Assembly (NCBI GenBank): GCA_030272155.1
Contig: CP126202.1
Location: 558,001-622,000, forward strand
Reading direction: 5' to 3'
DNA length: 64,000 nucleotides
From: Tetradesmus obliquus
Taxonomy: Eukaryota; Chlorophyta; Chlorophyceae; Sphaeropleales; Scenedesmaceae
Below are positions 1,957 through 60,847 of the stretch, one piece after another (within the stretch, counting starts at the first letter, position 1; each line of letters begins with the position of its first letter). Position numbers and translations under genes: made by a program. Under the pieces are notes generated by a model. The model saw nothing but the letters and a program-made list of their open reading frames with translations, was not told the origin of the DNA and searched no databases.

Positions 1957-3017
1957 ATGGCATCACAGCAGCTGGCCTGTGACCATGCCATGCTGCTGCC
2001 ACTGCTGACTCTGTGCCCTCTCCTGCCGTGCACTTGCCTCACGCGCCCGCACATACAACGCATCATTTTGCTGCTGCAGCACCCCCTGCAAAGCCTTGGG
2101 AACGCACTGGAGCAGCCGCAACAGCAGCAGGCAGCGACCCCGCAGCACCCAAGCCTTGGGAGCAGGCAGGCGCCTCAGCCCTCACCTCTCCTGCAAGCGC
2201 TGATGTAGCAGCAGGCAGTCAACCCACTAGACCCTGGGAGCGCCAGGGTATAACAAGCAACGGCTACGCCAGCACATCATACGGCACCAGGCCAGGCATG
2301 TACGGCGCAGCTGGTGCTGCTGGCCCGTATGGCAGCAGCACCTACGGCAGCACGTACGGCCAGCCCTATGGCAGCAGCACATACGGCAGCGGGCTGTATG
2401 GTAACACCAGCGGCATGTACGGCAGCAGTAGCTATGGCACTGGCTATGGCAGTAGCTACGGCAGCGGGTCAATGTACGGCGCCGGATCCGTGTACGGCGG
2501 CGGCGGCGGCATGTACGGCAGCACAGGCGGCATGTACGGCAGCAGCATGTATGGCGGCGGGGGCATGTATGGTGCTGGTGGGATGTACGGCAGTGGCGGC
2601 ATGTACGGAATGCGGCCAGGGCTTGGCGGTGGCATGTATGGGCAGCCAGGGTTTGGCGGCCCAGGTGGTATGGGAGGACCCTTTGACCCCAATGCGCCGC
2701 CGCCAGCGCCGCCGACAGCCTGGCAGGCAGTGCTTGCAGGAATCAATGGCGTCATGATGTTCTTCGGGCGGCTATCATTCCTAGTCGATGAGAATGCACA
2801 TGCAGTGCATTTCTTCATCTCGGCGCTGCTGCAGCTGCTGGATAGAGCGGGGTCGTTGTATGGCGAGATCGCGCGGTTCATCCTGCGAGTGATCTTCAAG
2901 CGCAAGCGGCCGCCAGGGCAGCTAGCTAAAGGGCAGCTGGCACTGCCGCCAGGTGCACCTGGCGCAGCAGATGCAGCAGCAGCAGGCAGGCTGGGTTTTT
3001 CAGGCAGGCCAGGTGCC

Positions 3018-3055
<38 letters not shown>

Positions 3056-3158: not shown

Positions 3159-3178
3159 CCACATGCAGCACCACAGCA

Positions 3179-3980
3179 GCAGCAGCAGCAGCAGCAACGG
3201 CAGACGAGCTGGGGTTGTTAGGAAGGCCAGGCGCCCCAGCAGCAGCAGCAGCAGCAGGTGCAGCGTTTGGCGCTGCGTGGTCGTCTCCTGCCCTGCCCAG
3301 CAGTAGTATGGCTGCTGCTGGTGACCCGCCAACTGGTGGCCACTGGGAGAACCTGTGGGGTGACAGCTAGCAGCATGCAGCACCACAGCAGCAGCAGCGG
3401 CCAAGCTGGGCTTCCAGGCATGCTGGCTGCCCTAGCAGCAGCAGGAGGTGCAGGGTTTGGCGCTGCGTGGCCGCCTCCTGCACTGCGTGGAAGCAGTACG
3501 GCTGCTGCTCGGGTCCTGCCAACTGGCGGCCACTGGAAGCAATCGTAGGGTGACAGCGAGCAGCATGCGGCGCAGCAACAACAGCAGCAGCAAAAGTAGC
3601 AGGCAAGCTGGGGTTACCTGTGCAGGCTGGGCGTTTTAGCAGCAGCAGCAGCATTGGCAGCTGGAGCAGGGTTTGGCACGTTGTTGCCTCCTGCACTCCC
3701 TGGCATCAGTGTGGCTGCTGCTGGGGACCTACCCAGGTCACTGGGAGAACTTATTGGCCAACAGCTAGCACTCTGCGGCGCAATAGCAGCAGCAGCCGCA
3801 AGCTGTGTTACCTATGCAAGCCAAGCGTGCCAACAGCAGCCGCAACATTAGTAGCTGACGCAGGGTTTGGTGCTGCATGGCCGCTTCCTCTGCTGCCTGG
3901 CAGTGGTATGGGCTGGGGCCAATTGCCGGCCACTGGGAGATTATGCAGGGTGAACAACGAGCATCATGCAGCGCAGTAGT
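3179..3980 (+). repeat. Four decayed tandem copies of the PEX13 3' end
   Basis: The segment coding for the PEX13 tail (Ala run, FGAAW, PPALPGSS, GGHWENLW, stop) occurs again four times. The common core GTTTGGCGCTGCGTGG starts near 3056 (real gene) and then near 3265, 3455, 3670 and 3865, a period of about 190-215 bp. The copies have substitutions, shifted frames and differing stop positions. They lie after the stop codon and so would be 3' UTR or intergenic. Confidence 0.85.
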
Positions 3981-12283: not shown

Positions 12284-12628
12284 TCAATCAGTCAGCGTCA
12301 CCACTTCCTGCACTTTGTGCCTGCACATGGGGCACTCACTGCCAGGATCATACATGCTTGCACAGCCGCTGCACAGGCACAGGTGCATCAGCCCACCATG
12401 CAGCAGCCCCACCTCCCGCACACCCTCCCAGCACACCACACATAGCACCTCAGCGCCATCATCACTGTCAGCATCACTGCCGTGTCCGCCTGCTGCTGCT
12501 GCTGCTACATCAAAGGCGCCCGCAGGTGCAGCAGCAAGCGGCAGCACGCCTGTTGCTGTTGCTGCTGCCGCCGTTCGAAGTTCCGCAAACGCACGGTGTG
12601 GTGGCAGTACAAAGCCTGACGGCTGTTG

Positions 12629-12660
<32 letters not shown>

Positions 12661-13427
12661 GGTCTGGTGAGGCAGCGCGCAGTTGCTGGTAGCCAGCAGC
12701 AGCAGAGGGTGGATGTAGTGCTGCAGCCTGCAGCGGGTTGTATGGCGCTGACAGCGCTGGAGTAATGACTGGCACTGCACTTGCAGTCGGTGGCCCACAT
12801 GGCGCTGCTGCTGCTGCAATGTGCCTTGTGCCGGCTGCTGCTGCTGCTGCTGCTGCTGCTGCGGAGCTGGTCGCAGGTGCAACTGGCGTCCTCACAAGCC
12901 GGCTCCCACCAGGTGCTGGTGCTGCTGCTACTGCTGCAGGGCCAGTTATAGGGGTGGCGAGGCCAGCTGGTGGCCCATTGGCAGCAGCTGCAGATGGCTG
13001 GCTCTGCTTGCTTCTGCTGCTGCTGCTGGTGCTGCTGCTGCTGCTGGCCTGGGCTGGCTGGCATGCTGCTGTTGCGCTCGGCATCCCAGCAGCTGCGGCA
13101 GCACGCCTGGGTGCCTTGCCAGCAACAGCAGCAGCAGCAGCAGCAGCAGTAGGAGTAAACTGCTTGCTGGGGGCTGCTGGGGCTGAAGTTGCCACAGCCT
13201 GCCGCTGCTTGCTGCCCCTGCTGCTGCTCGTTTCCTTTACTGCAGCTGACGTGGCAGCAGCAGAAGGTGCAGGATGCTGCAGTGGCTTGCAGCTAAACGG
13301 CAGCAGCAGCAGCAGCATCAGCAGCAGCTGGCTGCTTTGAGGCAGCAGCTGAAGCTAAGGATGAATCAGCCTGCTGCTGCCTGCTGCTGTTCTGATGTGC
13401 ATACTTTGACGGCGCCACTCCTGCTGC

Positions 13428-13486
<59 letters not shown>

Positions 13487-13604
13487 GTGGTGGTGCATCG
13501 TCCCGGGCTGCTGCAGCTGTGATTTCTTTGGATGAGGTCTTGCTGGCAGAAGTGCCTTGCTGTTTCTGCTGCTGGCGGGCTTTGGCGGGTGCCTGGGCTT
13601 GCAT
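12284..13604 (-). CDS. Ala/Ser-rich RING finger protein
   Basis: Likely E3 ubiquitin ligase. Two exons, 13604-13405 and 13292-12284, with a 112-bp GT-AG intron (acceptor TTTAG). Phase 2 joins exactly and gives 402 residues ending in TGA. Most of the protein is low-complexity Ala, Ser, Gln and Pro coded by CAG/CTG runs. The last ~55 residues form a C3HC4-type RING: CVVCWEG, then HLCLCSGC, then ECPMCR. A C-terminal RING of this spacing resembles the MUL1/LRSAM-type zf-C3HC4_3 group. No membrane segment is seen. The chosen ATG lies just after an acceptor-like CCTTGCAG, so a further 5' exon is possible; a coding-like stretch (RLESGDQYMFIGRMRLFVAE) around 13790-13720 could belong to it. The substrate is unknown. 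Confidence 0.65.
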
Positions 13605-13935
13605 GACCTCTGCAAGGCAAAAGCAGCAGCAACAGCAGCAGCAGCAGCAGCAGCACATGCATATGCGAGCGTGCCACAAATGTTGCGTTGACAGGAGTGT
13701 TGTTGTAGCAGCAGCACAGTTCTGCCACAAACAAGCGCATGCGGCCAATAAACATGTACTGATCACCTGATTCTAGTCGCTCTGTGAGTGGCAGCACTCG
13801 ATGCTACTCGGCAAAGCACGCACTCAATTGCCAGGCTGAAGCGTATGCAGGAGTTGCTGCCGACGGCAGATGCGTCCAGTCAGCGAATTACATGGTGAGC
13901 TTACATGTGCTGCTGTATCCCAGCTGTCACTGCAT

Positions 13936-16900
13936 TCACCATCTCACATGATAAGCCCGCATGTGCTGCTGCATCCCAGCTATCGCTGCATTGCCGGCAA
14001 GCTCACCTGGACTGCCGGGGCTCAACCTGGTGCTGCTGCCCAATCCCCCAGTTGCAGCAGCAGTGATTCCTTCAAGCGCAGTTGAAGAGCCAGCCCGTAC
14101 TGCGCTGCTACTGCTGCTGCTGCTGCCGCTGGCGCCGGCGTTGAGACGAGCAATCTGGCCCTCTGCTGCTGGCATTGCCTCCACCCCTGCTGCTATTGCT
14201 GCAGCAGCAGCTGATGGCTCTCGCGCTGCCTGCTCACTGGCCCTGCTGCTGCCACTGCTGCTACTGCTGCGCACTCTGCTGCCACCGCTGCTTGTGGCCA
14301 CCTGCCTACCGCCCGTCCTCCTGGCCTGCTTCTTATTGGCCTTGCTGCTGCTGCTGCTGCTGGTGGTGGTGGTGGTGGTGTGTTCCGATGATGCATGCAG
14401 CTGGCCATTGTCAGCAGCAGCTGCAGCAGCAGCAGCAGTGGTGTCCGATGCTGTTGCAGCAGCGACAGCGTCTGCCGATGAGCTGAAGCATGTTGCAGCA
14501 GCAGCCACCTCAACAGATGCTGACATGTAGAGCTGCTGCAGCGCAGCCACCTCAACAGATGCTGACATGTAGAGCTGCTGCAGCGCAGCCACCAGCTTCC
14601 TGAAGGGTGCAAGCGGTGCACCCTCCCATGCCCAGCACACGCCAAACCATGCGCACACCAGCACAACTGCCCAAGTTTGTGCCTGTGTAAAGTCCATCTC
14701 TGGCCAATCAACGTGCATGCCACCCAAACCACAGCGCAGAGGAAAGCACAGAAGGCACGCGGCACTCAGAACAAACAGCGCAGAAGCAGCAGCAAGCTGC
14801 CTGGCCAGCAGCCACACACAGCCGCTGTGCAGGCTGCTGATGTAACTCAGCGCACCACGGCCACTGCCGGCCATGCGAGCTGCTACGATTGTGCTGATGT
14901 GCGGCAGCACATTGTGGCCAAGGTCAACCACGCTAGCTGCAGCAAGTGCAGTCTGTGCAGCCATAGCCCTCACAGTGGCTGCAATTGACTGACAATATCT
15001 GTCTGGCTGCTGCAGCACAACAAGCAGCTCACGGAAGGGTGGGAACTGCACCACGATCCATGCATAGCCCACAATAGTTCCAGACACAATGATCGCCTCA
15101 ATTGCAAACACTGTCTTCTGCACCAAAACAAGCTTCCAGCTAGCTTGTGGGTGAGCAGGAGCAAAAAGCCCGCCGCATATCTGCCACAGCAAGGTCACAT
15201 AGAAAAGCGCAAGAGCTACAGCAATCAGGAGCCACGCAAGGCGCGTCGTGGCCCACCACAGACCACAACCCACATCACGCAGCACACCACCTATGCGGCA
15301 CAGCAGACTGCCCATGTAACGCAGCCCACCACGCAGATCAAGCAGCATACCACCCTTGTCAGGGCTAGCGCTGCAGGCTGCAGCAGGCTGCACACCCCGA
15401 CCTGCTGCTCGCGCTGCTGCTGCTGCTGCCCTGCGCCGAGGCTTCGCACTCTGGGCCGAGGCGGACTGCCACAACTGCCGCAACGCAGCCAAGCATAGTA
15501 CCAGCACCGTCAAACATGTGCCTGTCAGTTTAAAAGTGTCCTGCAGTGTTAGATGTGCAGCACGCCGGTCAGATGCAGGTTGACCCGCCGTGCTGGTGCT
15601 GCTTTTATCATCAGCAGTCTTCCTGTGCTCGTGCAGTGGTTTAATTGGCACTGCACCCTGCGGTGGCCCAAACTCCCGCCACACAGCATCAAACGTGTTG
15701 ACGCCTTTGCCGCAGTCAAAGCAGTCAAGCGTGGGCTCTGCTGTATAGCCTGTCGCTTATTTAGAGTGCATGTCAAACCCCGGAGCTTGCACATGCGCGG
15801 CCAGATGTTGGCCCGCGACGTGCCATAACACGAGGTGCTTGCTGGCAGGCCGTGTGACGGGGGAGCGAAGGCACGCGCCGCAGTTGTGCAGAAAGGCTTG
15901 TTCTTCAAAGAACGGCAGGGCGCCAGCGTCGTGTGTGTCCAGGCATTCTTGGCAGGCGTTGGGAGCGCAGAAATCGTCCTCGTAGGCATCCCAGTTATAG
16001 TCGACTATAACTGTCGCAGACGTCTGCAGGGTCGTCGCTTTCGCTGGCAAAACGCGACAGCCTGCAGGAGGGGAGGGACAACAGCGATGGCAGCAGCAGC
16101 AGCAGCAGCATGCATGCATGCATTCGATGCTTGCAGGGGCCAGAAGTGTAGCAGCCCAGGTGTGGCAATTACCAAGAACATTGGCTTCAGGGTTCACCTA
16201 CGGAGCAGCTGATGGAAGTGCTGCCAACGGCCAAGCACAGCTTGCAGGGCAACAGACCGTCTGTTGACAACTTGGGCTACGTTGTGCAGGCTTCATCATG
16301 GGGAAAACAAGCCCAAGGTAACATATGGCCTGCACCGTCAACTGTCAGCAGTTTGCACATCAGCTCTGGCGGGGTTGACATCCGACATGCACTGCAGGCA
16401 GTCTGCTGCTGCATATAAACTTGATAGTGGTTTGAAACCACTTTGTGTACTGCTTGCTGCTCAAGGTGGCAACAACCTTGGAGTGGGGCGTACTGTCTGC
16501 AGCGTGAGCGTTCCTGGCATTGCAATGCACCAGCTCTTGCATGTATGCCTGCACCATTGCTGCTGCTGCTGCTGCTGCTGCTCACCACCAAACGGTTGCG
16601 TGATGTGCGAGCACGTTGCGCAGCACAGTGCTGACACTGTCAGACGCAAGGCAGGAGTGGCAGTTTCTGTAGCCAGAGTCGCTGACCATCAAGGCTTGAT
16701 CAAGATCAAGATCAGGGTCAAGATCACTGTCTTCCCACCTGCAGCAATCATCATCAGCAGCAGACAGGTGTTTGCAGGACTTGAGGCAGGGGCCTGGGAC
16801 AGCGAGAGGTGGCCGCTGCGCAAACCATGGACAGCATGAAGCCCACAATTCACAGCAATTTCGTTTATGAACATGTAGTACGCATTCACTGCAAACAACA

Positions 16901-24135: not shown

Positions 24136-24176
<41 letters not shown>

Positions 24177-25571: not shown

Positions 25572-25610
<39 letters not shown>

Positions 25611-36600: not shown

Positions 36601-36885
36601 CTCCTGTTGTGGCCTTGTGCCTACACTGCTATGCTCCGCTGCTGCAGTCATGCTTGCCTCGGGGCAGTCCTGCATCAGAGTGCAGCACAGGTACTGAGCA
36701 TGTGGGGCTGTGTCGGCCCCTCGTCAACCTTTGAGGACTTTCATTTAGTTTCAACACTTCACGCAACGCGTTGTTGATCTCTATCTTTCCCGTGTTGCAT
36801 GCATGCATCACACGCTTTGCAGCACTGCAACGTGCTGCTGAGCACGCAGATGGCAATCAGCATGACTATTAGCTCTACATTGCAC

Positions 36886-36927
<42 letters not shown>

Positions 36928-39139: not shown

Positions 39140-39205
<66 letters not shown>

Positions 39206-40034: not shown

Positions 40035-40644
40035 ATGAGCCAGTCAGCAGCAACAGCAGCACCACCGCCACGCCGCAAGGTCGTTGCTGTGGTGGGTGAC
40101 AACTGCCTGGATGCAGCAGCGATGCGCAACACAAGCAGCAGCTGGCTGAAGAGGTGAGCTGTGTTTGCTGTGTAATAATGTGTTTCCTTTCAAGCATGGA
40201 TGTTGCAGCAGAGTTGTGGCTGCAGGCGAGCATGATGCTTTGTGAGCGCAACTGCCAGTAGTGCCTGTAGTCGCAACCAGCCAGTGGCGAGTGTGGTGCT
40301 GCTGATTCAGACAGCCTGGCTGGGTGCTGGCCAGCACTGGCGGTCACCCCAAAACATGGTTTTGGGGAAAAAGATGCTCAACTGCAGCCACACACGCATT
40401 CGAAAGTGATGTCGTGATGCATGTGTCAGTGGCTGTGCATGTGCACAAAGTGGCTCCCTTCACAACCCGCCGTTCAGTTTCAGGCTCATTACATCCACTG
40501 CTTGTTTGACTGGCCACAAGCTGTGTGCACCACACAAGTCGTTACTATAGTGGTGTGCTGCTGCAGGTTGGGCAAGCCACTGTTGATGCGGGGCACAGGG
40601 TGCTCACAGGCGGACTGGCAGGTGAGGCAGCAGCAGCAGCAGCA

Positions 40645-40715
<71 letters not shown>

Positions 40716-41017
40716 GGCAGCAGTTGCAGTGTTTGCTGCTGCGGCTGATGGTCACAGCTGCCAGTGCTACCACCACTTCCAGGGTCAGCGTCATCAGGCT
40801 GTACCTGACCTGCTTCTGCTGCCGATGTCAACCATCTAATAGCGATGCTGATTAGGCCTCCATCAGCAACAGAGGCTGCGCTGCCCCTGCTGCTGCCGCT
40901 GCTGCTGCTGCTGCTGCTGTTGCTGCTATTGCTGCTGCCGCATGTCTCGCAGGTGTCATGGACGCCGCCATGAAGGGCGGCAGCAGCAGCAGCAGCTACC
41001 AAGAGGGTGACAACACC

Positions 41018-41055
<38 letters not shown>

Positions 41056-42199
41056 ATGCCTTGCAGGTGTCATGGATGCCGCCATGAAGGGCGCCCGCAG
41101 CAGCAGCCATTACAGGGAGGGCGACACCATTGCTGTGCTGCCTGGAGAGGACCCGGCAGCAGCCAGCAGCAATGCGGACATTGTGATATGCACCGGCTTG
41201 GGATCCTATAGAAATGGTAAGTGGCATGTGCTGCTGGCTTTGCTACTAGTACTGCAGGATGTCATCTCACATGTCTGCTGCCAGTCACTGCTAAGCTGGC
41301 TCGTGGCCGGGTGCATTGCTGTGCTGCCTGGACAGGACCCGGAAGCAGCCGGCAGCAGTGCTGACATTGTGATATGCACCGGCCTGGGCTCCTACAGGAA
41401 TGGTGAGTGGCATGTAGAAATGATGAATTGATTCGGCTCATAGATTTTGAGGAATTAAAGTAACGCATAACTATATGTGCTGCTGGCTTCCGTACTGCTT
41501 GGCGAGGCACCAGCGGCAGCCAGCAGCCATGCTGCCATTGCCATGTGCACAGGCTTGGAGTTGATGGATGGTGTGTGCTTCTGGTTTTGCTGTTGCTTGA
41601 TGTCAGCTCAAATCTTTGCTGCCAGTCACCTGCTGAGCTGGCGCATGGCTGGCTGCATTGGTGTGCACCTATCCTGTGCCGCAGCAATCTCCTGCATGCC
41701 ACACCTCGCCAGTGCACACTGAGCGATGAGCGATATACTCGTGCCAGTGGAGGTAGCACCACGGTGGTATGTACATAGCGATTTCGAAAGCACAGCAGCG
41801 TAGCTTCCTGCCACACCTGCCTTGATGCAGCCTGTCTGCTCTGCTTCCTGCTGGTGCTGCTCTTCTACCTGCTCTGTTATGTGCATGCTGCTGCAAGCTG
41901 CCAACCAAACCTTGGCCTCCCAGCTTTTACAAGCAGCTGTACCGCTGCAACACTAACCGTTTCCTGCAGGCATTGTGGGCCGCGCAGATGCAGTGATCGC
42001 TGTCGGCGGCGGCGTCGGCACCTTGCAGGAAATCTGCATTGCCTGGAAGGCTGCCAGGCTGGTGGTGGTGATGGCGGGCGTCAGCGGCGCCACGTCAGCG
42101 CTTGCAGGAAAGTGCATCGACGGCCGCGGTGGGCCGGGCCGGCGGGCTGTGCTGGGGGCGAATACGGCTGAGCAGGCAGTGCAGCTGCTGCAGCTGTGA
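40035..42199 (+). CDS. LOG-family protein (TIGR00725-type nucleotide-binding)
   Basis: Family related to the cytokinin-activating phosphoribohydrolase LOG. Exons 40035-40153, 40567-40621, 41067-41216 and 41970-42199, all GT-AG, ~184 codons, ending in TGA. Motifs in order: RRKVVAVVGD, KQQLAEEVGQATVDAGHRV, LTGGLAGVMDAAMKGA, IAVLPGEDP, ADIVICTGLGSYRNGIVGRA, DAVIAVGGGVGTLQE, then AAVLGANTAEQAV-like ending. The GGGVGTLQE signature replaces the plant LOG PGGYGTLEE, so enzyme activity on cytokinin nucleotides is uncertain. The summed exons are two bases over a multiple of three: the frame of VVAVVGDNCLDAAAM must change before QHKQQLAEE, near 40120-40128. This is either an assembly error or a real lesion. 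The start ATG precedes MSQSAATAAPPPRRK. Confidence 0.72.
40954..41570 (+). repeat. Exon-3 edge copies in the LOG-family gene
   Basis: 40954-41006 repeats the start of exon 3 (GVMDAAMKGGSS) in the preceding intron, with its own acceptor and a GTGACA after it. 41308-41401 repeats its end (IAVLPGQDPEAAGSS, CTGLGSYRNG, GTGAGT donor), and 41499-41560 repeats it again, more decayed, both in the following intron. Confidence 0.88.
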
Positions 42200-43947
42200 T
42201 ATTCATGATGTTTGTGCTGAACTTCAACTTGAAGTTGGAGTTGATCAAGGTAGCATTTTCCACAGTAGAAACACTAAGGCTGATGCATCATCATTGTGTT
42301 ACAATTTGAATTTTCTTGAAGGTGTGCTCGTGGCATGTTTGGATGGGGTGCTGCTCCTGGTGCACAGCATGCTCTCCTGCAGTGGCCGCAGCAGGCTGCT
42401 AGCGCTATGTAGCGCAGTATACTTTGCCTCAGGCAGGCTGCTGTTTGGCGGGCTGTGCACTGCCGCGCCGACATCCGGTGACAGAACCTATTGTTGGACC
42501 GAGATCGTCTCGTTGGCACGAATGACAATGCAGAAGTGCCACTGCGGTGCCAGCCCCTGCTGCACTACAGGTACAGGTGCACTACAGGTACAGGCTGACC
42601 AGCCAGCCAGCCCAGCTGGACCCTTCGCCTGGTGACCTGTTGCGCGCACAACTGCATCACGTGTATCAGTATCAGAGTTTCTAAAAAAAACAGAAGATCA
42701 AATGCACAGTAGAACTCGTGGGAGGTGATAGTGAAGGCGGGCGAAGCTAGAAGCTAGAACTTCCAGCCCTGAAGACAGCCAGAATCACCGCTGCCATTAC
42801 AAAATAGCGAAGCAGGCGATAAACGAACAATTTTTAGTCTAATTTGTCAATTGATGCGCAGAACCACCGCGTTCCCGGGTGTCACCTGGCGGTTGTTCCG
42901 TGCGGTAGTGAGTCTCAAGAAGCGGGGAAAGCACTGACAGTCACCGACACCTTGCAATGCTTCGGGCGTCCCATAACTGCACCAAACTGGTCGTTTCTGC
43001 TGATTGATCAGCTGCAGTTGTTGGCTCGCACTGCACGGTGCTGGGCTCGGTCTGGCTGAAGCTGCCGCGTTGACGTTCCTGGCTTAGGCCGTCAGAAAAG
43101 CTCTTTTAAGCCCGACAAAGCAATATTCAGCTGAGAGTAGCAGTTGATAGGCCACAAGGAGCACCAAGAATATTGACGTAAAACAGACGGCAACGCAAGG
43201 AGCAGGTCACCATCGCCGGCAGCACGGCCACGAGTAGCTGTGGTCAAACGAAACTGGAAGGTGAGTGCTGCTTAGCACAGATGCGGTCAATGCAATGCGC
43301 CATTTCTGCGGAGCAGCAGCTCCAGCCCATCAGGCAGAAGCATCGCCAAGCACGCAGTAACAGCACTTGAAAAAAACATTCGACTATATACCAAACGGAT
43401 ATAACAGCTGCCGAAGTCAGCTGGGCTGCCAGCGCTTGAAGGGAAGTGAGAACTGGGATGCACACAGCAGGCCTACTGAGCCTACAGCGTTCGAACCAGC
43501 AGCGTGCCAGCTTGCTGCCATGAGTTGACTCTGGTCAACATGCACACTACAGTGGCTGTAGCACTGCAACATCAGCAGCAGTGCTTCCAGCAGGAATGCA
43601 AATCAACCTGCACAGCCAGGCTGCCAGGCAGCTTTGCCACCCCTGCAGGAAGCTCCATCCCAGACCTAGTCAGCAGAAGCACCATTCAGCAGCAGCACCA
43701 CACAGCAGCAACCCAATGGCTCCTCAGATGCGGCAGCTGCCCCAGCGCCAGCTTGCAACTGTTTCCTGCAGCTGTCTCCTGCAGCTGCAGCTTACTCCTA
43801 TCCACCAGCAGCAGCGCCACCAAACCTCCGCAGCACTCTGCATCCTGTACAGCTCACATCATGCGTGTCCTGTCCACCTGCTGCTTGCAGGAGCTTTACA
43901 AACTGCCCCAGCAGGCAAAAACAAACAAAACTCCGGAGCAAGGCAGC
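42200..43947. other. Intergenic, no gene supported
   Basis: This is between the LOG-family stop and the acyltransferase start. A minus frame 43465-43244 starts with ATG and has a hydrophobic stretch but no domain. An upstream in-frame ATG at 43861 (MRVLSTCCLQELYKL) could extend the acyltransferase N-terminus. The promoter of that gene should lie here. Confidence 0.35.
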
Positions 43948-44818
43948 ATGCAGGCAGCAGGCATGGCTTGCCAGAAGCGCTCAGCAGCAGGGAGCCGCGA
44001 TGACTGTACCATCATGGTGGATGGCAGCAGCACTGCTGCCGCTGCAACACCAGCAGCAGCAGCAGCAGCAGCAGCGCCGGCAGTGCGCAGCAAGCCGCGC
44101 ACCTACTATGTGGACTGGCTGCGAGTGTTCCTGACAGGTGCGTGATGCAACTGCTGCTTTCCCCTCTTTGCTGAAATAAGGCGGCCATTCATGACACGAT
44201 ACACATGTGAAGTATGCGTCAGCAATCAACGGTCAACAATCGACTTTTCCTGACACGTGAGTGGTGCGGCTGCTGGTGTTGTTGCCTGTTGAGATAAGCC
44301 GCAATCTCATGATGTGTGTATGTACGAGGCATTGCTGTTGGTAGTAATGTGAGCAAGTATCTCTTCAGCATTGTCACTGTCAGCACGCCATACAATGCAT
44401 TGCTTTTGTAATGTAAGCGTAAGTTCGTCGCTGCGTGGGCATACAAAACGACTGCATACACAGCTCGTGCGGATAAGACAGCAGCAGCCAGTGGCGCAGC
44501 CATTGTGGCATGCTACACAGCAGCAGCAGCAGCAGCAGCAGCAGCGCCGGCGGCTGTGCTGGTGAACAGGGCATCTCAGCAGCAAGTGTCTGCAGCAGCT
44601 ACCCCCGTTCGTTTGCTTGCAGCAGCTGCAGCTGGCTGCATTGCAAATTGCAGTTGTCACTGCTGCCGTGCCTGGCATGCTGCTGCTGTCAAATCACGTC
44701 ACATGCTCCCTTTGAGCGTAAGCCAGTGCTCCTGTGTGACTTTTTGTGCCGCAGTGCTGGTGCTGCTGCACCAATGCATCACGAAGTAACTCAGCACTTG
44801 GAAGCCATGGAAGTCACA

Positions 44819-44903
<85 letters not shown>

Positions 44904-47057
44904 CACCTGACGCTTTCCTGCTGCTGCCGCAATCTCTTCTACTTCTGCAGTGCTGGTGCTGCTGCACCACTGCCTGACCGAGTACCTGTCCACTTGGAAG
45001 CCGTGGAAGGCTCGCAAGGGCGACACCGCGCACTGGCTGCTGGTGCAGCTGTTTGTGAACGGCAATCAGGCCTACTTCATGACGCTGTTCTTCTTCCTGT
45101 CAGGTGGGAATTGGTTTGTTACAGGAGTTACAATGTTTTGGGTGTGGTTCACCAGGGGCCATGGTGCAGCTGCTTGTGAATGGCAACCAGGCCTAGTTCA
45201 TGACGCTGTTCTTCTTCCTGTCAGGTGAATATAGCAGTTATCTGGGTTGGGCTTTAGATTTTGGGGCGTGTAGGGCTGGACAGTCAACACGGATCGGCAA
45301 CCAGTCCTACTTCATGATACCCTTCTTCTTCCAGTCAGGTGCGGCGAGCGATGTAGTGCTCAGTGGTGTAGGCTTGTGGCTTGTGGCTCAAGGTTTGGGA
45401 TGTTCGCCAGCAGGGAGTGGCAACTGACCTTTGTCATTACGCTGTTGTTCTTCAGCTGGGTTTACAGTTCCGGGTTCAGGGTAGATCTACTGAATGTGCT
45501 GAGAGAGGTTCACATGGCAGTGCGTTGCGTTTTAATGGCTTGCGCAAGGCTGACTTGTAGCATCCGCTCACTCAGACGATCTGTCTGCTTGTACGCACCC
45601 GCACGCCTGTACGTGCCGACCTCATACAAGCGCAAGGGCCCCTGGGAGTTCCTCAAGGGCCGCACCCTGCACTTACATCACACATAAATAACAGACCTTG
45701 CGGCACACTGCTACGACAGCTGCACGCAAGCTCTAGCCTGCGCACTGACACCGCCTGTCTGCTTTGCTGCACACGCTGTGATGCGACTGCAGGCCTGTAC
45801 GTGCCCCCTTCCTACAAGCGCAAGGGCCCCTAAGAGTTCCTCAAGGAACATGCTTGACATTGAAAAAGCGTGCGGCATGCTGTTTGGCCAGATGCATCAT
45901 AAGCTGAGCTGTGCACTCACACCATCTGTCATGCCTGCCGTGCACGCGCAGGCCTGTATGTGCCCCCTTCATACAAGCGCAAGGGCCCCTGGGAGTTCCT
46001 CAAAGACCGCACCCTGCGCCTCGTCATCCCCTGCCTCTTCTACAGCATGATCATTGCACCTTTCAACATCTGGTGGGTCAAGCACACCACAGACCCAAAA
46101 GCCACGATGGGTCAAGCATTCGCCGAATGGTTTGCCCCCGGATGGCCGACAAAGTACGTGCTGCCGACAGGCCCGCCTTGGTTCATCTGGATGCTCTGGT
46201 GCTTCAACGTGGCGTATGTTATCATCAAGGTCATGGCGGATTCGGCGGTTGGGAAGAAGCTGCTGCAGGCAGTCTGTAAGGCTTGCAGGAAAGGCGATGG
46301 TGCAGCAGCAGCGCTGCCGCAGCAGGGGGATGACAAAAAAGAGGCGGCAGGGTCCGCTGCTAAGCCTGCAGCACCCAGCTGCGTGGAATACACCACTAGG
46401 CAGTGGCTGGTCGGCGGCGCGGTGCTCACGTTCGTGCTGTTTGTGCTCATGTTTGCCACGCGCGTGCTGGATATGCTCGCTTTCAACCTGCGGCCTGCTG
46501 TCTTCGTCTCCCAGGGTCCGTTTGTGGCTTTCATGCCTGACTACTTTGTGGTGTATGTGGTGGCGTTTGGCCTCGGCATCTACTCTGGTCCTGCAAGCTG
46601 GAATGTGCTGGCCCGCATGCCCAGCGGGTATGCGGCTTGGTGGCTCAGCATCTCAGGTATCTGGTGGGTGCTTGGCGGTTGGATTCCAAACATCCTGCTG
46701 CTGCGGCAGATGTCCCTGCAGTTTGGCATGGGGACATTCATGGGCAGCTGGATGCTCCGTACTTTTGTGGAGCAGTCATTCTGCGTGGTGTGGTCAGCAG
46801 GGCTGCTGGTGCTGTTCAGGGAGGCGTTTAACATCCAGCCAAAGTGGCTCGGGCGCCAGATCATTAACGGCGCGTACGGCGCGTACATCATCCACCCGCC
46901 GATTATCATCCTGTTTGCGCGTGCGGTGATGGGGCTGGATGCGCTCGCGCCCAGCGCTGTGATCAATGCGGCGGTGATTAGTCTGCCGGTGGTGGTGTGT
47001 GCATGGACGGTGGCGGCGGCTGTGCGCGCGATCCCCGGCTTTGACCGCGTGCTGTAG
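43948..47057 (+). CDS. Membrane acyltransferase, acyltransferase-3 / OpgC-like
   Basis: Integral membrane O-acyltransferase of the acyltransferase-3 (PF01757) type. Three exons, 43948-44137, 44951-45103 and 45952-47057, give 482 residues, TAG stop, all phases consistent. After an Ala-rich N-terminus comes the family signature YYVDWLRVFLTVLVLLHHC, close to the RxxYxDWLRV of bacterial glucan-modifying OpgC/MdoC proteins. Then AYFMTLFFFLSG, the basic YKRKGPWEFLKDRTLRLVIP, and about nine further hydrophobic spans, including WFIWMLWCFNVAYVIIKVM, YFVVYVVAFGLGIY and GAYGAYIIHPPIIILFARAV. A cytosolic Ala/Lys-rich loop lies near residues 215-245. The likely acceptor is a polysaccharide or lipid; the substrate is unknown. 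The bacterial resemblance may reflect old transfer. Its exon edges and its 3' end are repeated nearby. Confidence 0.82.
44517..45850 (+). repeat. Exon-edge copies in the acyltransferase introns
   Basis: 44517-44560 resembles the exon 1 Ala run. 44756-44814 repeats the start of exon 2 (LVLLHQCITK then stop). After exon 2, its end (NGNQAYFMTLFFFLSG) recurs at 45153-45225 with a TAG, at 45292-45339 and, weakly, at 45405-45460. The start of exon 3 (YVPPSYKRKGPWEFLK) occurs early at 45600-45672 and at 45790-45850, the latter with a TAA. Confidence 0.88.
44820..44902 (+). repeat. CTG array, about 27 units
   Basis: Uninterrupted CTG run of 83 nt in intron 1 of the acyltransferase gene, ending 48 nt before the exon 2 start. 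It is the longest pure triplet run in the window. Confidence 0.95.
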
Positions 47058-47169: not shown

Positions 47170-47745
47170 GCTGTCAGCGGTGATGGGGCTGGATGCGCTT
47201 GCGTTCAGCGCTGTGATCAATGCGACGGTGATTAGGTTGCCGGTGGTGGTATGCGCGTGGGCGGTGGCGGCGGCTGTGCGTGCGATCCCAGGCTTTGACC
47301 GCGTGCTGTAGGCAGCTGCTGTGTTTGGATTGGATGCGCTACAGTGTGTGGCTAGTTGAGATGCTGTTGTTGCCACGCCTTCAATGCATGCTGTGACCAG
47401 CGGCAGTGCAGCATGTCTCATGATGACAGGCAGCTCTCAGCGGTGATGGGGCTGGATGCGCTTGCACCCAGTGCTGTCATCAATGCGGCTGTGTGTTGTT
47501 TGCCAGTGCTGGTGTGGACGGTGGCGGCGGCTGTGCGCGCCATTCCAGGCTTTGACCGCGGCTGTAGGCGGCTGTTCTTCCTTGGATGCCGTGCAGTGTG
47601 TGGCCAGATGAGTTGCTGTGAGATGAGTTGCTGCCGTGCCTTTCACTCTTCACATTGTGGCTGGAGACAGTGCAGCAACTTGCAAACTGACAGGCAGCTG
47701 TCGGTGGTGGCTGTGGCTGTTCCAGGCTTTGACCATGTGCAGTGC
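47170..47745 (+). repeat. Three decayed copies of the acyltransferase 3' end
   Basis: The terminal coding segment (AVMGLDALAPSAVINAA, VAAAVRAIPGFDRVL, stop) recurs at about 47170-47312, where it is nearly intact and keeps its stop, at 47430-47575 with small deletions, and as a short remnant with VAVPGFDH near 47700-47745. All are after the real stop codon at 47057. Confidence 0.9.
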
Positions 47746-51910: not shown

Positions 51911-51951
<41 letters not shown>

Positions 51952-54104: not shown

Positions 54105-57100
54105 CTAATCCCAGTAGCCCACCATAGGTCCCAAGGCATCACCTGCACTGAGAGCCTTCGGGGCCAAATCAACGCCAGAGCCACTCAGCCGCCACTGCTG
54201 CTGCTGCTGTACTAACCATACGCTGCCTGATTGCTTGCCTGATAGCTTGCCTGCATCCTGGCTGCCCATGACATCATCCAGCGCGCTGCAATCCACGCCT
54301 CGCGCAAACGCCTTGCGCCCGGTCACAAGCACATTGTCAAACGCCTGCATCTCGCTCACGTCAGCGCCAGTGCTCACAGCAGCAGCAGCAGCAGCGTCTG
54401 CCGCATTGCTGCGCAGCGCCTGTAGGGCTTGCAGCCGCTGCTGGTGCGAGCCGCTGTTGCCTGAATGATCCACAGGAGGCACGCTGTGCCGCCGCACCGC
54501 AGCAGCCTGCTTGAACCCCCCACCTTGAACCCTCCCCGGCCCTGCATCTGCGCCGCTGCCAGCCGCACTGCTGCCGAAGCCCAAGCCAGGGTTCAGCCCA
54601 GCCGCCAAAACCTGATCCAGGGTGCTGTAGCCTCCTCCTCCTGCTGAACCGCCGTTGCAGGTCTGCAGCACTGCACCCGCTGACAGTGGCAGCCGCATCG
54701 CTGCTGGTAGAGCTGCAGCAGCAGGGCGGGCCCAGTTTGCCCTGGGGGTCACAGCCTCAGGGATAGCCTGCAGGCCACGCACTGCTGCTGCAGCTGGGGA
54801 GGCATTGTTGAAGCTGACACTCTTGCGCACTGGCTGCCTGGCGACGCCAGCAGCAGCAGCAGCGGCAGATGTAGCTGCCTGGGCAGCAGCAGCAGCTGCT
54901 GCAGCGCTGCTGTTGTCCGCTGCCTCAGCAGCAGCAGCTGCAGCTGCAGCTGCTTTTGCGACACCATAGAAGCTTGCTGCGCCGGTGCTGCCGCTGCTGG
55001 CGCCGCTGCCGCGCCTGCTGCTGCTCCTGCTGCTGCCGCCAGGCTGCAGCACACCTGTCAGTGGCGCAGACGCACTGGCAGCAGCAGCAGCAGTCGGCTG
55101 TAGCCACGGCCCGCTGGGCCAGCTCTGCTGCATGTCCATGTGCTGTAGCGCAGTTAGCTGCAGCGCCAGTTGAATCTGCAGCAGCTGCTCTGCGACAGCA
55201 CTAATGCAGGGCCGCTCTGCCGGCTCTGCTGCCCAGCACTGCTCAGCCAAAACAATGAGCTCAGGAGGAGATCCTGGCTGCCAGGGGGGCCGCTGCTTGG
55301 CTAAAACAAGCTGCATGACCTCCATGCTGTGGCTGCAGTTCCTGAAGGGAGTGGTGCCGCCATGCACCACCTCCCAGACTGCAACAAAGTGACAGAAAAG
55401 AGGTGCGACGGAAGCAAGGCGGTCAGAAACTCAACATGAGCAAGCAGGCACGAGCTGCATGACCTCCCAGCTGTGGCTGCAGTGCCTGAAGGGGGTGGTG
55501 CCGCCATGCACCACCTCCCAGACTGCAAGGAAAGAGGTGACAAGGGAAGCAGAAAGCAAGAAGGTGAGCAAACAGCATGAGCAAGCGGCACGAGCTGCAT
55601 GCCCTCCCAGCTGTGGCTGCAGTGCCTGAAGGGGGTGGTGCCGCCATGCACCACCTCCCAGACTGCAGAAAAAGGGATGACAAGCGAAGCAGAAAGCAAA
55701 AAGGTAAGAAAAGCAACATGAGCAAGCCAGCACCAGCCGCATGACCTCCATGCTGTGGGTGCAGTGCCTGAAGGGGGTAGTGCTGCCATGCCACCTCCCA
55801 GACTGCAAGAAGAGAATGAAGAATGCAGAGAGCGTGCATGCGGTGATTACGTAGCAGTAATGCAGTTGTAAACAGCTTGACTTATCCTCACTGAACACCA
55901 TGTGCACTGTCAGCAAGCATCCAGTGCAGCACATGATGCACTAAATACCATGTACACATCACTGTCAGCAAGCATCCAGTGCAGCACACGATGAGGCTGT
56001 ACGGCTGCCCAGCAGCACCACCACCAGCAGCAGCAGCAGCCACTTAATAAGCATGCCCATGCTGTACAGTGGACGGTCTGACGTAATACCACGTCACTCT
56101 ATATCAACCTAACATAAGACAGCAGCAGCAGCCGCCACTCACTGAGCATGCCCATGCTGTACACGTCAGCCGCCTTGGACTGCTTGCCGGTGAGCAGCAG
56201 CTCCGGCGCCATCTGCAGCAGCAGCAGCAGCAGCAGCAGGGTGCAGGGACACAAAAGTGTCAGCAATCTTGCCGCATACTTGGTGCTAGTCTGATAACGC
56301 CATTCAACAGCGAACTGCACTCAGCAGCAGACTGCAATCCAATTTCCTGTCTCCCATCACCATGCTGCTGCCTGCGACCTTTAACCCTCAAACGACGGCC
56401 ATGCAATGCATGAATACGATCCAGGCTGTTGAAACACCATTAGGCTCACATGCGTGATGGCGCCTTGTTACTGTTGCTGCCGCTCGTGCTGCTGCTGGTT
56501 GATGCTGTCGGTCGCCTCCAGCAAGTGCAAATGAATGCAATGCACTAACAGTGGCTCACCAATTTGACACAGAGTGCATACCCCGTTAACAGTGCACTCA
56601 CGTGTGTGATGGTGTGAAGGCTCTGCGTGCTGCTGCTGCTGCTGCTGCTCGTGCTGCTGCTGCTGCTGCTTGTGCTGTTGCTGACTAGTGCCGTCGTTGC
56701 AGCCTCATGTTTGCGATATACTCACGTGTGTGATGGTGCCCAGGCTCTGCGTGCTGCAGTGGCTCTTGCCTGCATCCAAAGCCCTGGACAGCGAGAAGTC
56801 CATCACCTGGACATGAAAGCCAACAAAAACACAGCAGGTTAAGACACACCAGATAACCAGATACTTCACACACAGCAGGATGTATCAGGATAGGATGTCG
56901 GACATGTAATCAGCAAGCTGGGCCCACAAGTGCCATGCAAGCAGCACACAGCAGCCCAAGACAGACTGGCATACATTACGCACTGCTGCTCGCCAAGCAG
57001 CACCGGCAACTGCCTACACAGGGCCTCTGCTGTGCTGCTGGCTCCCTTAGTCACAGTTGTGTGCTGCTCATGCAAACGCCTGCTGCGCAGAGTTGTTGGT

Positions 57101-60100
57101 TACAAGCGTAGCCACGTCGCGCAATGCTGGGGTCAAACATATGGTCAAACATGCGGTCAAACATGTGGTCAAACATGCGGTCAAACATACCTTGCACACA
57201 AAGTCGACGCCCTCCGCGTTGCGGCTGCTGCTGCTCCTGCAGCTCCTGCCGCCCTCCGCATTGCCGTTGCATGCTGCAGGGCTCGTCGCATCCGCTGCTG
57301 CTGCTGCATTGTTGTTGTGGTTAGCAGCGGGCTGCGTGCTGACGAGGCAAACATTGCCTGCCTTCAGGTCCCCGTGCATGAGGCCCTTGCTGTGGAGGTA
57401 CTCCAAGCCGCGCGCAACATCCAGCAGGCACGATAGCATGCGCTCCTGATGATGCAGCAAAACAAACAGCGAAGACAGAGAAAATGAGACAATGTAGCGG
57501 TGTGCTGGCAGCAAAGGCAGGGACATGAGCGACGGGCAAGCAAGAGCAACAGCCGCAACAGCACACAGCAGCGAGGTTGCAACAGAGCTGCCGGCCGCCG
57601 CAGCAACAGCAGGCACCCTGGCTGTCAATTTGACACACTGCGCAGCGCAGCACCAAACCGCCAACCCGTCAAAGCAAGTCTGCAGCTACAATTGCGCACT
57701 GAAATGTACACATCAGCTGCACAGCATGTCAACAGCAGCCAGCAGCAGCAGCAGCAGTGCCTCACCATGGTCGCAAACTTGCCATTCTTTGCTGCTGCGT
57801 CCAGCGGCCCGCCATCACACAGCTCCTGCACAATCCCTGCAAACAAGTAACAGAAAGACCGTACATCAGTTGAAGGTCAGTGTGCGAAGCGTTACTAAGG
57901 CGGTGCTTCTACTCGACGAAGCTACTGCTGACCGAGCACTGTACCGCAAGCGTCACAGCATGCTCTCAACCGGCACCACCATGCAGCCTTCAGATGCAGC
58001 ACGATGCAACAATGATGCTATGAAACAGCAACTTGCAGCAAACGGGCCATCACAGAAGCTTGCAGAAAGCACCCCAACAATGCAGCTTGCAGGAGCCAGC
58101 CAGACACAGCAGCTTGCAGGAAACCGATCAAATCGAAACACAGCTTGCAGCAACTTGCAGGACACCACCGGAACACAGCAGCTTGCAGGAAACGCGCGCA
58201 CACACATGTCTGCGCCTCCAGATCGTCCTCGTCCTCGTCGTCGTCAAAAGTAACACAGCATCGTGCAAGATACTATTAAACACCACAGCTTGCAGGCAAC
58301 AGTCAAACAAATCAGCTTGCAGGACGCACATGTCTGCGTCTCCAGATCGTCCTCGTCATCGTCAAATCCAACACAGCAGCTTGCAGGATACTATTCAACA
58401 CCACAGCTTGCAAGCCATGCACAAACAAATCAGCTTGCAGGAGACGCACATGTCTGCGCCTCCAGATCGTCCTCGTCATCATCAGCTGCGCCAGCCACCC
58501 CCAGCCAGCCGTCAGCCGCCTCTGAGTCAGCAGCACCAAGCTCCAGCACGCCACACGCTGACGTGGCAGTGCCTGCCGCAGCGTCCAGGTGCAGGCTGCT
58601 GTAGCGGCGGCCGCCTTCCTGCAAGGAGCCGCCGCCGCAACCCGACACTGCTGCTGCTGCTGCTGGTTCGGCAGCCGCCTCGTCATGCGCGCCGCTGCCG
58701 CTGCCGCTAAACGCTGTACGTAGCATTTGCTGGCCCTGCTGCTGCTGCGGTGCCGCGCCGCCGCACTCGTCATCAATCACAGCCTTGGCTCGCTGCCACA
58801 TGAGCACATGATGTGTCTGCACCACATTCTTGTGGCAGGCCTGCAGCATGAGGTCTGTTTCGTGCACTGCATGTGCTGCTGCGCGTAGTCCCGAGTGGTA
58901 AAGCACTTTCACTGCTACTGGCTGACCCCGCCACTGGCCCTTGTATACTTTGCCATGTGCCCCACAGCCCAGCACGACACCTGGCAGCACACCAGAAGGG
59001 TTTGCAGGAAAACGGCGTTGCAGGAAACAGAGGGCGGAAGTGAAGTCTTGGGTGAGACAGCAGCAGCAGCAGCTAGGGCCCGCGGCGTGCGTGCGGCACA
59101 GTGCCCACACAGCAGCGGCATGTGCAGGCATGCTCAGCCTGGTGCCAGGGCATAGATGCTTACAAAGCAGATATGCTTGGATGCCGCATGGCTGCATGCA
59201 TCTGTAGGCGTGCCGGAGTGTACAATTTTGCTGAAAAGACAGAAATACAATAAAAAAAATACAACCGTCAAGTGCAGCGTGTCCACGCACGCCACTGCCT
59301 CATGCGCGCCGCACATCGCCACCGCGCTGATGATCATTCATCCAAAGCTCCACACTTGCAGGAAGCACACTTGCAGGAAGCACGCTTGCAGGAACACACT
59401 TGCAGGAAACAGCAGCACACTCACCTAAGCTGATGTCCTCCCCAGCCTGCTGCTGCAACATGCTGCTGCCTGACTCCTGCTGCTGCTGCTCCTGCCGCAG
59501 CTGCCGCTGCTCGCTCCCTGGCTGCGAGGATGCAGCCTGCACAGCAGGGCTGCTCCTGCTGAGCACACAAGTCCATCCGCAGCCCAGCGGCGTTACAGTG
59601 TTGGCAGATGCTCGCCCGCTCAGAGGCAGCGGGCCGCTGTCTGACCTCACACCCGACTTGCTGCCGCCACTGCTGCCGCTGCGGCTGCTGCCGGCCTTGC
59701 TGTGGTTGGGCTGTTTATTAAAAGAGATGCTGTCATGCGCTGCGATCCTGCAAGCCGGGCTGCCGCTGCTCCTGCTGCTGACGCTGCTGCTGCGCACCGT
59801 GAGCAGCGGGGTTTCTGCTGCTGATGACGGTGCTGCTGCTGGTGCTGCTGCTGGTGGCAGTTGGCTGTGCAGGCCCTGCCACAGGGCCTCGGAGCCCTGC
59901 TGCTCCTGCCGCTGCCGCTGCTGCGACTGCGACTGCAGTTGCTGCTGCGGTGCAGGCTGCTGCTGCTGCTCGTTGTGTGCAAGGTAAGTGGCGAAGCTAG
60001 GTGCTGCGAGTTCTGGGACGCTGTCGTCAAAGCTAGGTGATGCTAGTGCGTGGGGAATATCTACGGATGCAAACGCTTCGTCCTCATCATCACTGTGACT

Positions 60101-60847
60101 GCCATCATCACCTGCTGCTTCTAAGCACTGCACAAGACCCTGCTCCTGCGTATGAGCAGCCGCAGCTGCAGCTGCATCAGACACAGCCGCTGCTGCGTTG
60201 GATGCTTTGGCAGCAAGCAGAGCCAGCAGCACTGCTGCATACTTTCCTCCTGCTGCTACGACCGCCAGCGGCACGTGCCGCAGCTGCTGCCAGGCCAGTG
60301 CTGCATACAGCAGCAGCTGCTCGCATGCTATGCTAGAAGGCCCTGCTGCTGGCTCCAAAGTAGCCCTCTGCTGCTGGAGCTGCTGCTGCTGCTGCAGAGG
60401 CCTCACGCCTGCCTGCGTGCTGTGCCTGCCCAGGAGGAAGCCTCCAAGGCAGCTGATAAGCACAAACACGATGACATCTGCAAGCATCAACGAGCAGAAA
60501 GATGCTGCTGGTGAAGCGCTGCCCGGCATGCCTCATGCAGGAAGACGTGGTGGTGCTGCACCTCACAGCCAGGGGCTCTGCCACAGAGTTGTAGCTTTGC
60601 AGCTGAACTATCCAAACAGCGCATCGGCTGTTGAAAATTATACTACTGAAGCACGGATCAAATCAAGCTCACCCGGAAGCGTGTAGCCTGGCGTTGCACC
60701 GTGAGCAGCGACTTGATTCAGCGCCCCGGCGATGCAGCCCGTGTCAGCTGTCCACGACTGCTGGATTGGAGCTCCAGGCAGTGATACTAGGATGAGGGCA
60801 GCAAGCAAGCACTCTTGCAAGGCCATGATGCCCGAGAGTGGCTGCAT
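54105..60847 (-). CDS. Receptor-like protein kinase, TKL type
   Basis: Eight GT-AG exons: 60847-60673, 60477-59425, 58980-58450, 57836-57766, 57445-57191, 56806-56726, 56212-56143, 55378-54105. They sum to 3510 nt, 1169 residues, TAG stop, all phases fit. Order: signal peptide (ECLLAALILVSLPGA), a very short ectodomain, one membrane span (VIVFVLISCLGGFLLG), ~340 residues of Gln/Ser/Ala-rich juxtamembrane sequence, then the kinase: loop LGCGAHGKVYKGQW, VAVKVL, WIVQELCDGGPL, catalytic loop MHGDLKAGN, VMDFSLSRA, MAPELLLTGKQ, ADVYSMGMLIWEV, RPCISAVAEQLLQ. HGD replaces HRD (non-RD), and DFS replaces DFG. Low-complexity inserts interrupt the N-lobe and the catalytic loop. A ~350-residue Ala/Ser-rich tail ends GYWD. 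The ligand is unknown. Several exon edges are duplicated in introns. Confidence 0.87.
55457..55806 (-). repeat. Three extra copies of the kinase exon 8 start
   Basis: Exon 8 begins WEVVHGGTTPFRNCSHS with acceptor TTGCAG. Intron 7 contains three more copies ending at about 55525, 55665 and 55804 (period ~140 bp), each with a GCAG acceptor before TCTGGGAGGT. The two nearest copies read WEVVHGGTTPFRHCSHS; the most distant lacks the VV codons. Confidence 0.92.
56586..56640 (-). repeat. Copy of the kinase exon 6 end
   Basis: The last ~35 nt of exon 6 plus its GTGAGT donor (coding STQSLGTITH in the real exon at 56760-56726) recur here, downstream in intron 6, with a few changes. Confidence 0.8.
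57131..57190 (-). repeat. 12-bp array starting at a splice donor
   Basis: Five 12-bp units GGTCAAACATNN fill 57131-57190. On the gene strand the first unit is the donor of exon 5 itself (GTATGTTTGACC), and the following units read GCATGT, ACATGT, GCATGT and ATATGT. Confidence 0.95.
58203..58365 (-). repeat. Copies of the kinase exon 3 end
   Basis: The end of exon 3 (DDEDDLEAQT and its GTGCGT donor, at 58450) is repeated near 58203-58245 and 58328-58365 in the following intron, with a ~125-bp period. Between the copies are many CAGCTTGCAGGA-like motifs. Confidence 0.85.

Follow-up and report, generated by a model that had tools for sequence, protein, structure and literature searches.

Copies of exon edges beside their own exons in the green alga Tetradesmus obliquus and their probable origin by short tandem duplication

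Background

In a potato RdRp gene, a tandem duplication across an intron-exon boundary gave one new intron, and in the model of Rogers, as described in the same paper, an intron is gained by duplication of an exonic segment with AGGT (PMC4974935). Short tandem duplications arise from the repair of staggered breaks, with insertions of less than 100 bp (PMC8355091), and introner elements cause mass changes of intron content, for the most part in lineages that evolve fast, green algae among them (PMC9860276). Duplicated homologs of exons, at 80% identity or more, make up approximately 2% of the exonic bases in human, 0.08% in fly and 0.06% in worm (PMC9013439). Here we describe copies of exon edges that lie beside their own exons in the green alga Tetradesmus obliquus, in which the mean intron length is 462 bp, vs 230-302 bp in three related Sphaeropleales (PMC5966456). 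The stretch analysed, referred to as the window, comprises 64,000 nucleotides (positions 558,001 to 622,000 of contig CP126202.1, assembly GCA_030272155.1). A preliminary description of the window had proposed that almost every gene in it carries decayed copies of its own exon edges, produced by a continuing process of short tandem duplication across splice junctions.

Results and discussion

Exon-edge copies in the window

Three genes on the plus strand, with 26 exons, were anchored by homology: an XRN-like gene (22166-30238), a SigF-like NTF2 gene (33677-37575) and a gene with LOG and acyltransferase parts (40035-47057). An ab initio gene finder, run with simple repeats masked under a laxer rule (8.8% of the window plus the genome sample described below), predicted many of the copies as exons, and the window statistics therefore use the homology-anchored exons. 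Unless stated otherwise, counts of exons, introns and copies refer to these three genes. Two further gene regions were included in the total: a protein kinase gene on the minus strand, which has Pfam support and of which the exons were set by eye, and a PEX13-like gene, the name of which is a reading of the sequence, its open reading frame being without a Pfam match.

Self-comparison of the window, with simple repeats masked (5.4% of the window), was dominated by local direct copies: of the high-scoring segment pairs (HSPs) separated by at most 1 kb, 45 were direct and 3 inverted, and only 3 direct HSPs were more than 10 kb apart. In the repeat-masked anchored genes, 19 of the 46 pairs of an exon and its adjacent intron reached a score of at least 20, compared with 0/552 pairs of an exon and a non-adjacent intron. 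When the adjacent introns were reverse-complemented, 1/46 pairs reached a score of 20 and 0/46 a score of 22. As both controls are near zero, trinucleotide composition does not explain the copies; the exon-edge copies are real.

In total 40 copies were found in the five gene regions, 34 in introns and 6 after stop codons (Table 1). The anchored genes contained 30 of these, 12 before an exon and 18 after one, two of the latter past the acyltransferase stop codon. All 15 upstream copies of the five regions started at most 15 bases from the 5' edge, and 24 of the 25 downstream copies derived from the 3' end of their exon. The exception (36216-36248) matches the middle of its exon, at a distance of 44 bases from the 5' edge and 51 bases from the 3' edge; it can be taken as the third unit of a 3'-edge array. 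Thus the rule formulated earlier, that 5' ends recur in the preceding intron and 3' ends in the following intron or after the stop, was obeyed by 39 of the 40 copies. The matched exon portion was 26-135 bp long and in 24/30 matches came within 4 bases of the junction. A splice dinucleotide was retained in 24 of the 28 intronic copies, the site being extrapolated by 1-51 bases in 10 of the 28, and in all six kinase copies, which were found on 3 of the 10 exon sides tested in that gene. Divergence of the window copies from their own exon ranged from 3 to 23%. Copies were present in 15 of the 23 introns, accounting for 13.4% of the intron bases. Most are pieces with one exon edge and not whole exons, the cassettes in the XRN-like gene being the exception.

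Table 1. Coordinates of exon-edge copies and of the XRN-like cassette array in the window
Gene	Feature	Position	Strand	Remark
PEX13-like	four copies of last-exon end, past stop codon at 3158	3265-3953	+	
XRN-like	copy, 3' edge of exon 22609-22754, with GT	22821-22856	+	score 30; mismatches by codon position 0/0/3
XRN-like	copy, 5' edge of exon 23627-23738	23505-23544	+	TGCAG retained
XRN-like	copy, 3' edge of exon 23627-23738	23811-23865	+	
XRN-like	copy, 5' edge of exon 24188-24355	24064-24135	+	CTG tract upstream
XRN-like	two copies, 3' edge of exon 24188-24355	24430-24498, 24564-24621	+	
XRN-like	copy, 3' edge of exon 24772-25000	25056-25123	+	in-frame stop
XRN-like	exon whose final 54 nt head the cassette array	27626-27740	+	
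XRN-like	four 54-nt in-frame cassettes	27811-27864, 27932-27985, 28054-28107, 28177-28230	+	
XRN-like	short copy, 5' edge of exon 28952-30238	28840-28867	+	score 21, weak
NTF2	copy, 5' edge of exon 34388-34506	34264-34322	+	frameshifted
NTF2	copy, 3' edge of exon 34388-34506	34585-34622	+	GTGGGT retained
NTF2	copy, 5' edge of exon 34934-35090	34782-34872	+	TGCAG retained
NTF2	copy, 5' edge of exon 35727-35854	35610-35659	+	frameshifted
NTF2	copy 35990-36080, 3' edge of exon 35727-35854, plus unit 36216-36248 matching mid-exon	35990-36248	+	
NTF2	two copies, 5' edge of exon 37282-37575	36949-37047, 37112-37225	+	CTG tracts between
LOG	copy, 5' edge of exon 41067-41216	40953-40979	+	
LOG	two copies, 3' edge of exon 41067-41216	41314-41402, 41492-41558	+	
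Acyltransferase	copy, 5' edge of exon 44951-45103	44770-44813	+	stop codon; long CTG tract after
Acyltransferase	two copies, 3' edge of exon 44951-45103	45162-45208, 45292-45317	+	first with in-frame stop
Acyltransferase	two copies, 5' edge of last exon 45952-47057	45605-45670, 45793-45847	+	second with in-frame stop
Acyltransferase	two copies of last-exon end, past stop codon	47177-47311, 47440-47567	+	
Kinase	three copies, 5' edge of exon starting at 55378	55450-55802	-	TGCAG retained in 3/3
Kinase	copy, 3' edge of exon 56726-56806	56602-56627	-	GTGAGT retained; score 20, weak
Kinase	two copies, 3' edge of exon ending at 58450	58206-58231, 58330-58355	-	

Copies elsewhere in the genome

The genome sample consisted of 20 loci of 10 kb (L-numbers), chosen at round positions on seven contigs of the same genome. 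Its statistics rest on ab initio exon predictions and are weaker than those of the window; predicted exons with a codon score of at least 10 were considered confident. In the sample, near direct HSPs numbered 97, compared with 7 direct HSPs that were far apart and 7 that were inverted. A score of at least 22 was reached on 69 of 446 sides of predicted exons, vs 2 of 892 control comparisons, and a score of at least 24 on 32 of 267 sides of confident exons. Edge-anchored copies beside confident exons were present in 9 of the 20 loci. For confident exons 27 pairs were kept; all eight upstream matches touched the 5' edge and 14 of the 19 downstream matches touched the 3' edge.

The copies thus recur in the sample of seven contigs but are patchier there, with strong differences between loci, and the window is rich in them. 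The claim that almost every gene is affected is supported for the six gene parts that were named, but neither for the window as a whole (between 10 and 20 kb, one self-comparison gave no local direct repeat and another a single weak pair of 61%) nor for the sample. Regular arrays occurred in the sample as well, with identical 137-bp units in L010, units of approximately 150 bp in L022 and of approximately 98 bp in L028. In addition, minisatellite-like arrays with units of 74-191 bp, some with exon-like pieces, were observed at L019:25-1135, L022:3963-4618, L023:8080-9862 and L018:9302-9802.

Copies compared with proteins of another strain and of relatives

The LOG-like (SLOG) and acyltransferase-3 parts are annotated as a single 706-amino-acid protein in another T. 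obliquus strain; the two may be truly fused, or the gene model may have merged them. This predicted protein (P0050) has 98% identity over the whole acyltransferase query, and the acyltransferase has Pfam support. Its differences from the window, and those of an annotated protein matching the NTF2-like query (P0095; 84% over 79% of the query), suggest that both come from a strain other than the one sequenced here. The P0050 gene model splices from inside LOG exon 41067-41216 into the first copy, and both LOG copies are present in it. The string ...SSNADI-DPEAAGSSADI... in the protein is the product expected in the window if a GT-AG intron (41183-41335) separated the exon from the copy. The ab initio model of the window puts a donor at the same base, and the LOG join may therefore be a prediction artefact; judged from the protein, the other strain carries the LOG copy whether or not this is so. 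The spacer at 41403-41484 seems, by eye, to have been rebuilt by an AT-rich insertion approximately 13 bp behind the donor and by a deletion.

Since the copies have diverged and another strain's model holds both LOG copies, it is very unlikely that they stem from faulty assembly. CAG/CTG runs abound in the window, but the repeat-masked controls in both window and sample refute composition alone, which the preliminary description had named as one possible refutation. That the copies are chance similarity or assembly error can be taken as extremely improbable.

Each NTF2 exon edge occurs once in P0095 and once in P0096, the latter read from a relative's contig of 2,004 bases. This agrees with the earlier proposal that the copy contiguous with the exon body is the one in use. 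The exon of P0095 reads GLSTSGW, as does the window copy 36949-37047; the window exon has SLQSSGW and P0096 has GLKSSGW. Exchange between copy and exon is possible, as is an old polymorphism. The NTF2 copy 34782-34872 reads LNIELAPLY and at these positions resembles a distant relative (P0099, LNIKLAPLY) more than its own exon (LNLKLPPFF); this copy may keep older residues. Elsewhere in the genome, the 450-bp NTF2 array had matches of at most approximately 60 bp, to its CTG-rich part only, among the best candidates.

Probable tandem duplication across splice junctions

The copies probably result from recurrent short direct tandem duplication over splice junctions, with spare edges that mostly decay. 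The genome would often produce short direct tandem duplications, some with units that span a splice junction. The gene would keep using the splice site continuous with the exon body, and the spare edge, left in the intron or, for a last exon, downstream of the stop, would decay. A spare copy is expected in the adjacent intron because a copy inside the exon would change the protein; the polarity, presented earlier as a finding in itself, thus follows from the geometry of a junction-spanning duplication. Exons are conserved, so that copies derived from them would stay recognisable longer.

Several observations fit this origin. The nearest-copy period in the window is 102-254 bp. Intron sequence beyond the splice consensus is common to 9 of the 30 pairs, including both post-stop acyltransferase copies, as it should be if the unit spans the junction. 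In L010 and L022 there are young arrays in which the entire unit is shared. The copies are of mixed ages, sample pairs ranging from 100% identical (L010) to 72%. In these respects the process put forward in the preliminary description is broadly right.

Repeat tracts may contribute. A CTG run (at least four units) lies within 140 bp upstream of 6/10 5'-edges with copies vs 1/13 without (P = 0.019), and of 0/9 3'-edges with copies. Breaks or slippage at CTG/CAG tracts may help to start the 5'-edge duplications; for the 3'-edges the one lead is break repair of the kind that gives rise to ordinary short tandem duplications (PMC8355091).

The spare edges also keep a distance. The nearest copies of 20 edges have a spacer to the junction of 52-137 bp, none being below 50 bp. 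For the 19 intronic nearest copies, all at 50 bp or more, P = 2e-5 if the junction position were even within the unit, and in the sample 19 of 21 nearest spacers were at least 50 bp vs 13.9 expected. Selection would remove new duplications that place a second splice site within approximately 50 bp, because splicing fails.

Points against simple duplication and decay, and the alternatives

A number of results weigh against this explanation or fit it poorly. Of the 17 arrays, 14 were observed on an exon edge vs 11.7 expected on random placement inside the three gene bodies, all-exon placements being excluded (P = 0.17), so that the preference for junctions claimed earlier is not supported; over the whole region including intergenic DNA, 8.2 edge overlaps were expected vs the same 14 (P = 0.002). 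In the sample, 5 of the 19 downstream matches of confident exons lie off the 3' edge. The 50-bp floor was picked after the data had been seen, and decay of the inner end of a copy inflates the apparent spacer. The CTG link is based on 23 edges and on one of two edge types. No recognisable intron part beyond the splice consensus is shared in 21/30 pairs, and among 12 pairs at most 5% diverged at codon positions 1 and 2, only 4 share an intron part. A simple tandem unit predicts more intron sharing, unless mid-sized spacer indels are frequent, as seen by eye at 41403-41484. The lost intron parts would be explained by such indels, or else by conversion acting on the exon parts.

The loss of intron sequence speaks for a copy-paste origin, in which an exon edge with 5-18 bp of intron is copied nearby by template switching at TGCAG or at the AG-GT junction, or by patch repair. 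In several close pairs (in L010, L019, L022 and L028, NTF2 exon 4 and LOG exon 3) the similarity is indeed lost approximately 5-18 bp from the junction. However, patch repair should invert about half of the copies, and the reverse-complement control showed that inverted copies hardly occur, which makes this a weaker rival. Some of the youngest arrays share their spacer, and the successive NTF2 exon 4 copies are spaced 226 and 219 bp, as in an array. We regard a copy-paste origin as quite unlikely.

Gene conversion between exon and copy would preserve the similarity of the exon parts and let the intron parts diverge. In L028, exon and copy share 48 identical bases, 41 of them exonic, with an intron side that is hardly alignable, whereas differences among the array copies fall in the exon part as well as in the intron part (by eye; L026 is similar, also by eye). 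The GLSTSGW of P0095, equal to the window copy and not to the window exon, would fit as well. Conversion alone, however, predicts no excess at third codon positions, and the evidence comes from single loci; we consider it very unlikely.

That excess also weighs against duplication followed by simple decay. Mismatches between exon and copy in the window were distributed over the codon positions as 57/34/131, at approximately 647 sites each. In a simulation of a dead copy beside an exon that accepts synonymous changes and a tenth or none of the others, at equal mutation rates, the third-position share was 0.43-0.45, vs 0.59-0.60 observed. With one copy per edge (20 of the 30 copies) it was 0.60 vs 0.44, and for confident sample exons (21 of 51 pairs) 0.557 vs 0.432, with 0/300 runs as high in either case; for all 51 sample pairs it was 0.489 vs 0.435 (P = 0.02). 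The copies keep the exon level of third-position G + C (77.5 vs 78.2%) and show no net drift, with 52 GC-to-AT and 47 AT-to-GC changes. GC-to-AT mutation bias was rejected as the source of the excess, the ratio of G/C to A/T singleton rates being 0.76 (at most 13 arrays).

These data would be explained if most of the copies had a function, as tandem or alternative pieces of exons, and were constrained by coding. The third-position excess appears in two separate sets with third-position G + C held, 20 of the 30 copies are without gap or stop, the spacer floor is near the size of a short intron, and the LOG model of the other strain uses a copy. The XRN-like gene offers the clearest case: its four in-frame cassettes, equivalent to the final 54 nt of an exon of 115 nt, are free of stops, each with AG before and GT after, and are separated by gaps of 67-70 bp. 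Three of them have the peptide of the exon although 4 bases differ in each (counted by eye); SYSGEQRALTQLSHSLLF is found in three cassettes and the fourth has three changes. Together with LOG 41067-41402, the array at 27811-28230 is among the best single candidates for function.

For the copies as a whole, however, stop codons are not depleted and are roughly as frequent as under neutrality: in the window, stops were present in 5 of the 28 intronic copies (in one of them behind a frameshift) vs 6.4 of 30 simulated, and in the sample in 2 vs 2.7. Splice dinucleotides were retained in 45/55 copies (window, kinase and sample), which is about what the measured divergence alone is estimated to give. 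The period ignores the reading frame, only 7/30 being multiples of three. Furthermore, the other exon edge is absent from most copies, each NTF2 edge occurs once in P0095 and P0096, and the post-stop copies show a like third-position tendency (4/1/7 and 4/1/9). Mainly functional copies are therefore unlikely. Of the 20 edges, 8 have more than one copy; private changes at these were 24/21/42 in the copy and 3/1/12 in the exon by codon position; as the branch of the copy also holds earlier exon changes, these counts do not separate the readings.

The spacer floor and the codon signature exceed what simple neutral decay gives. We read the data as mostly dead copies of which a minority, the XRN array first, may be or may recently have been spliced exons, leaving a mild coding signature from use during part of their life, or else as exons in which synonymous sites change more quickly than introns do. 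A bolder version of recurrent duplication, which we hold only tentatively and think improbable, is that Tetradesmus keeps making trial exon edges, which would be spared only with an intron-sized spacer and many of which would enter minor isoforms before decay, the XRN cassettes being in use and LOG an intron in formation. The supply of spare splice sites and new exons, as proposed in the preliminary description, thus stands only as a possibility for the XRN array and the LOG gene model.

Other features of the window

Scans of the window with Rfam (gathering threshold) and for transfer RNA genes gave no match. Tandem Repeats Finder on positions 1-64000 reported periods of at most 42 bp and of at least 90 bp with none between, so that unit sizes may have a gap there. 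Exons and introns alike contained very dense CAG/CTG runs, at 12600-14300, 29000-30100, 39141-39204, 40627-41054 and 44820-44902. In the XRN-like gene, another decayed copy of the 5' edge of exon 23627-23738 was seen by eye near 23383.

Comparison with described systems

The phenomenon is known in kind and unusual in density; the unusual density claimed earlier stands, and neither the polarity nor the junction preference is independent evidence. As in the potato RdRp gene, a boundary-crossing tandem duplication adds a second set of splice signals, but here dozens of copies lie in one window and are known from the DNA sequence (PMC4974935). Like the Rogers model, as given there, tandem duplication supplies spare GT and AG sites; unlike in that model, the segment is not purely exonic, as most matches reach to within 4 bases of an existing junction and 9/30 share intron beyond it. 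A new intron between copies is resembled only by the LOG model P0050, possibly a prediction error.

The copies share with the unannotated duplicated exons of PMC9013439 that they are homologs of exons of the same gene and largely intronic, but most of them comprise part of an exon edge and not a whole exon. In the three anchored genes, picked from a flagged window, an intronic copy at 80% identity or more existed for 16.9% of the exonic bases, and 3.4% had a copy in the sample (1.3% counting only copies outside predicted exons); methods differ and the comparison is rough. Tandem duplication of a whole frame-compatible exon with both splice sites does not describe most copies; the XRN cassettes are the exception, although each corresponds to part of an exon. 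Duplications from staggered breaks are likewise direct, local and of an ordinary mutation class, but the period here exceeds the insertions of less than 100 bp in the cited text (PMC8355091). Introner elements also change intron content on a mass scale, whereas each copy here matches its own neighbouring exon and none a non-adjacent intron at score 20 (PMC9860276). Among the papers listed by the literature searches, which left most subscription journals and bioRxiv outside, no report of such copies in Tetradesmus was found.

Conclusions

The copies may bear on the long introns of T. obliquus, although copy-bearing introns were not significantly longer here (median 449 vs 352 bp, P = 0.15), against the enlargement proposed earlier. 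Specialist attention would be most worthwhile for the spacer floor and the codon signature. The choice between splice sites is put to a natural test at each duplicated edge, where near-identical sites lie tens to hundreds of bases apart, one of them continuous with the exon. Pairs of graded age would let one measure which site wins, what distance of a rival is tolerated and at what rate spare edges turn into exons or introns.

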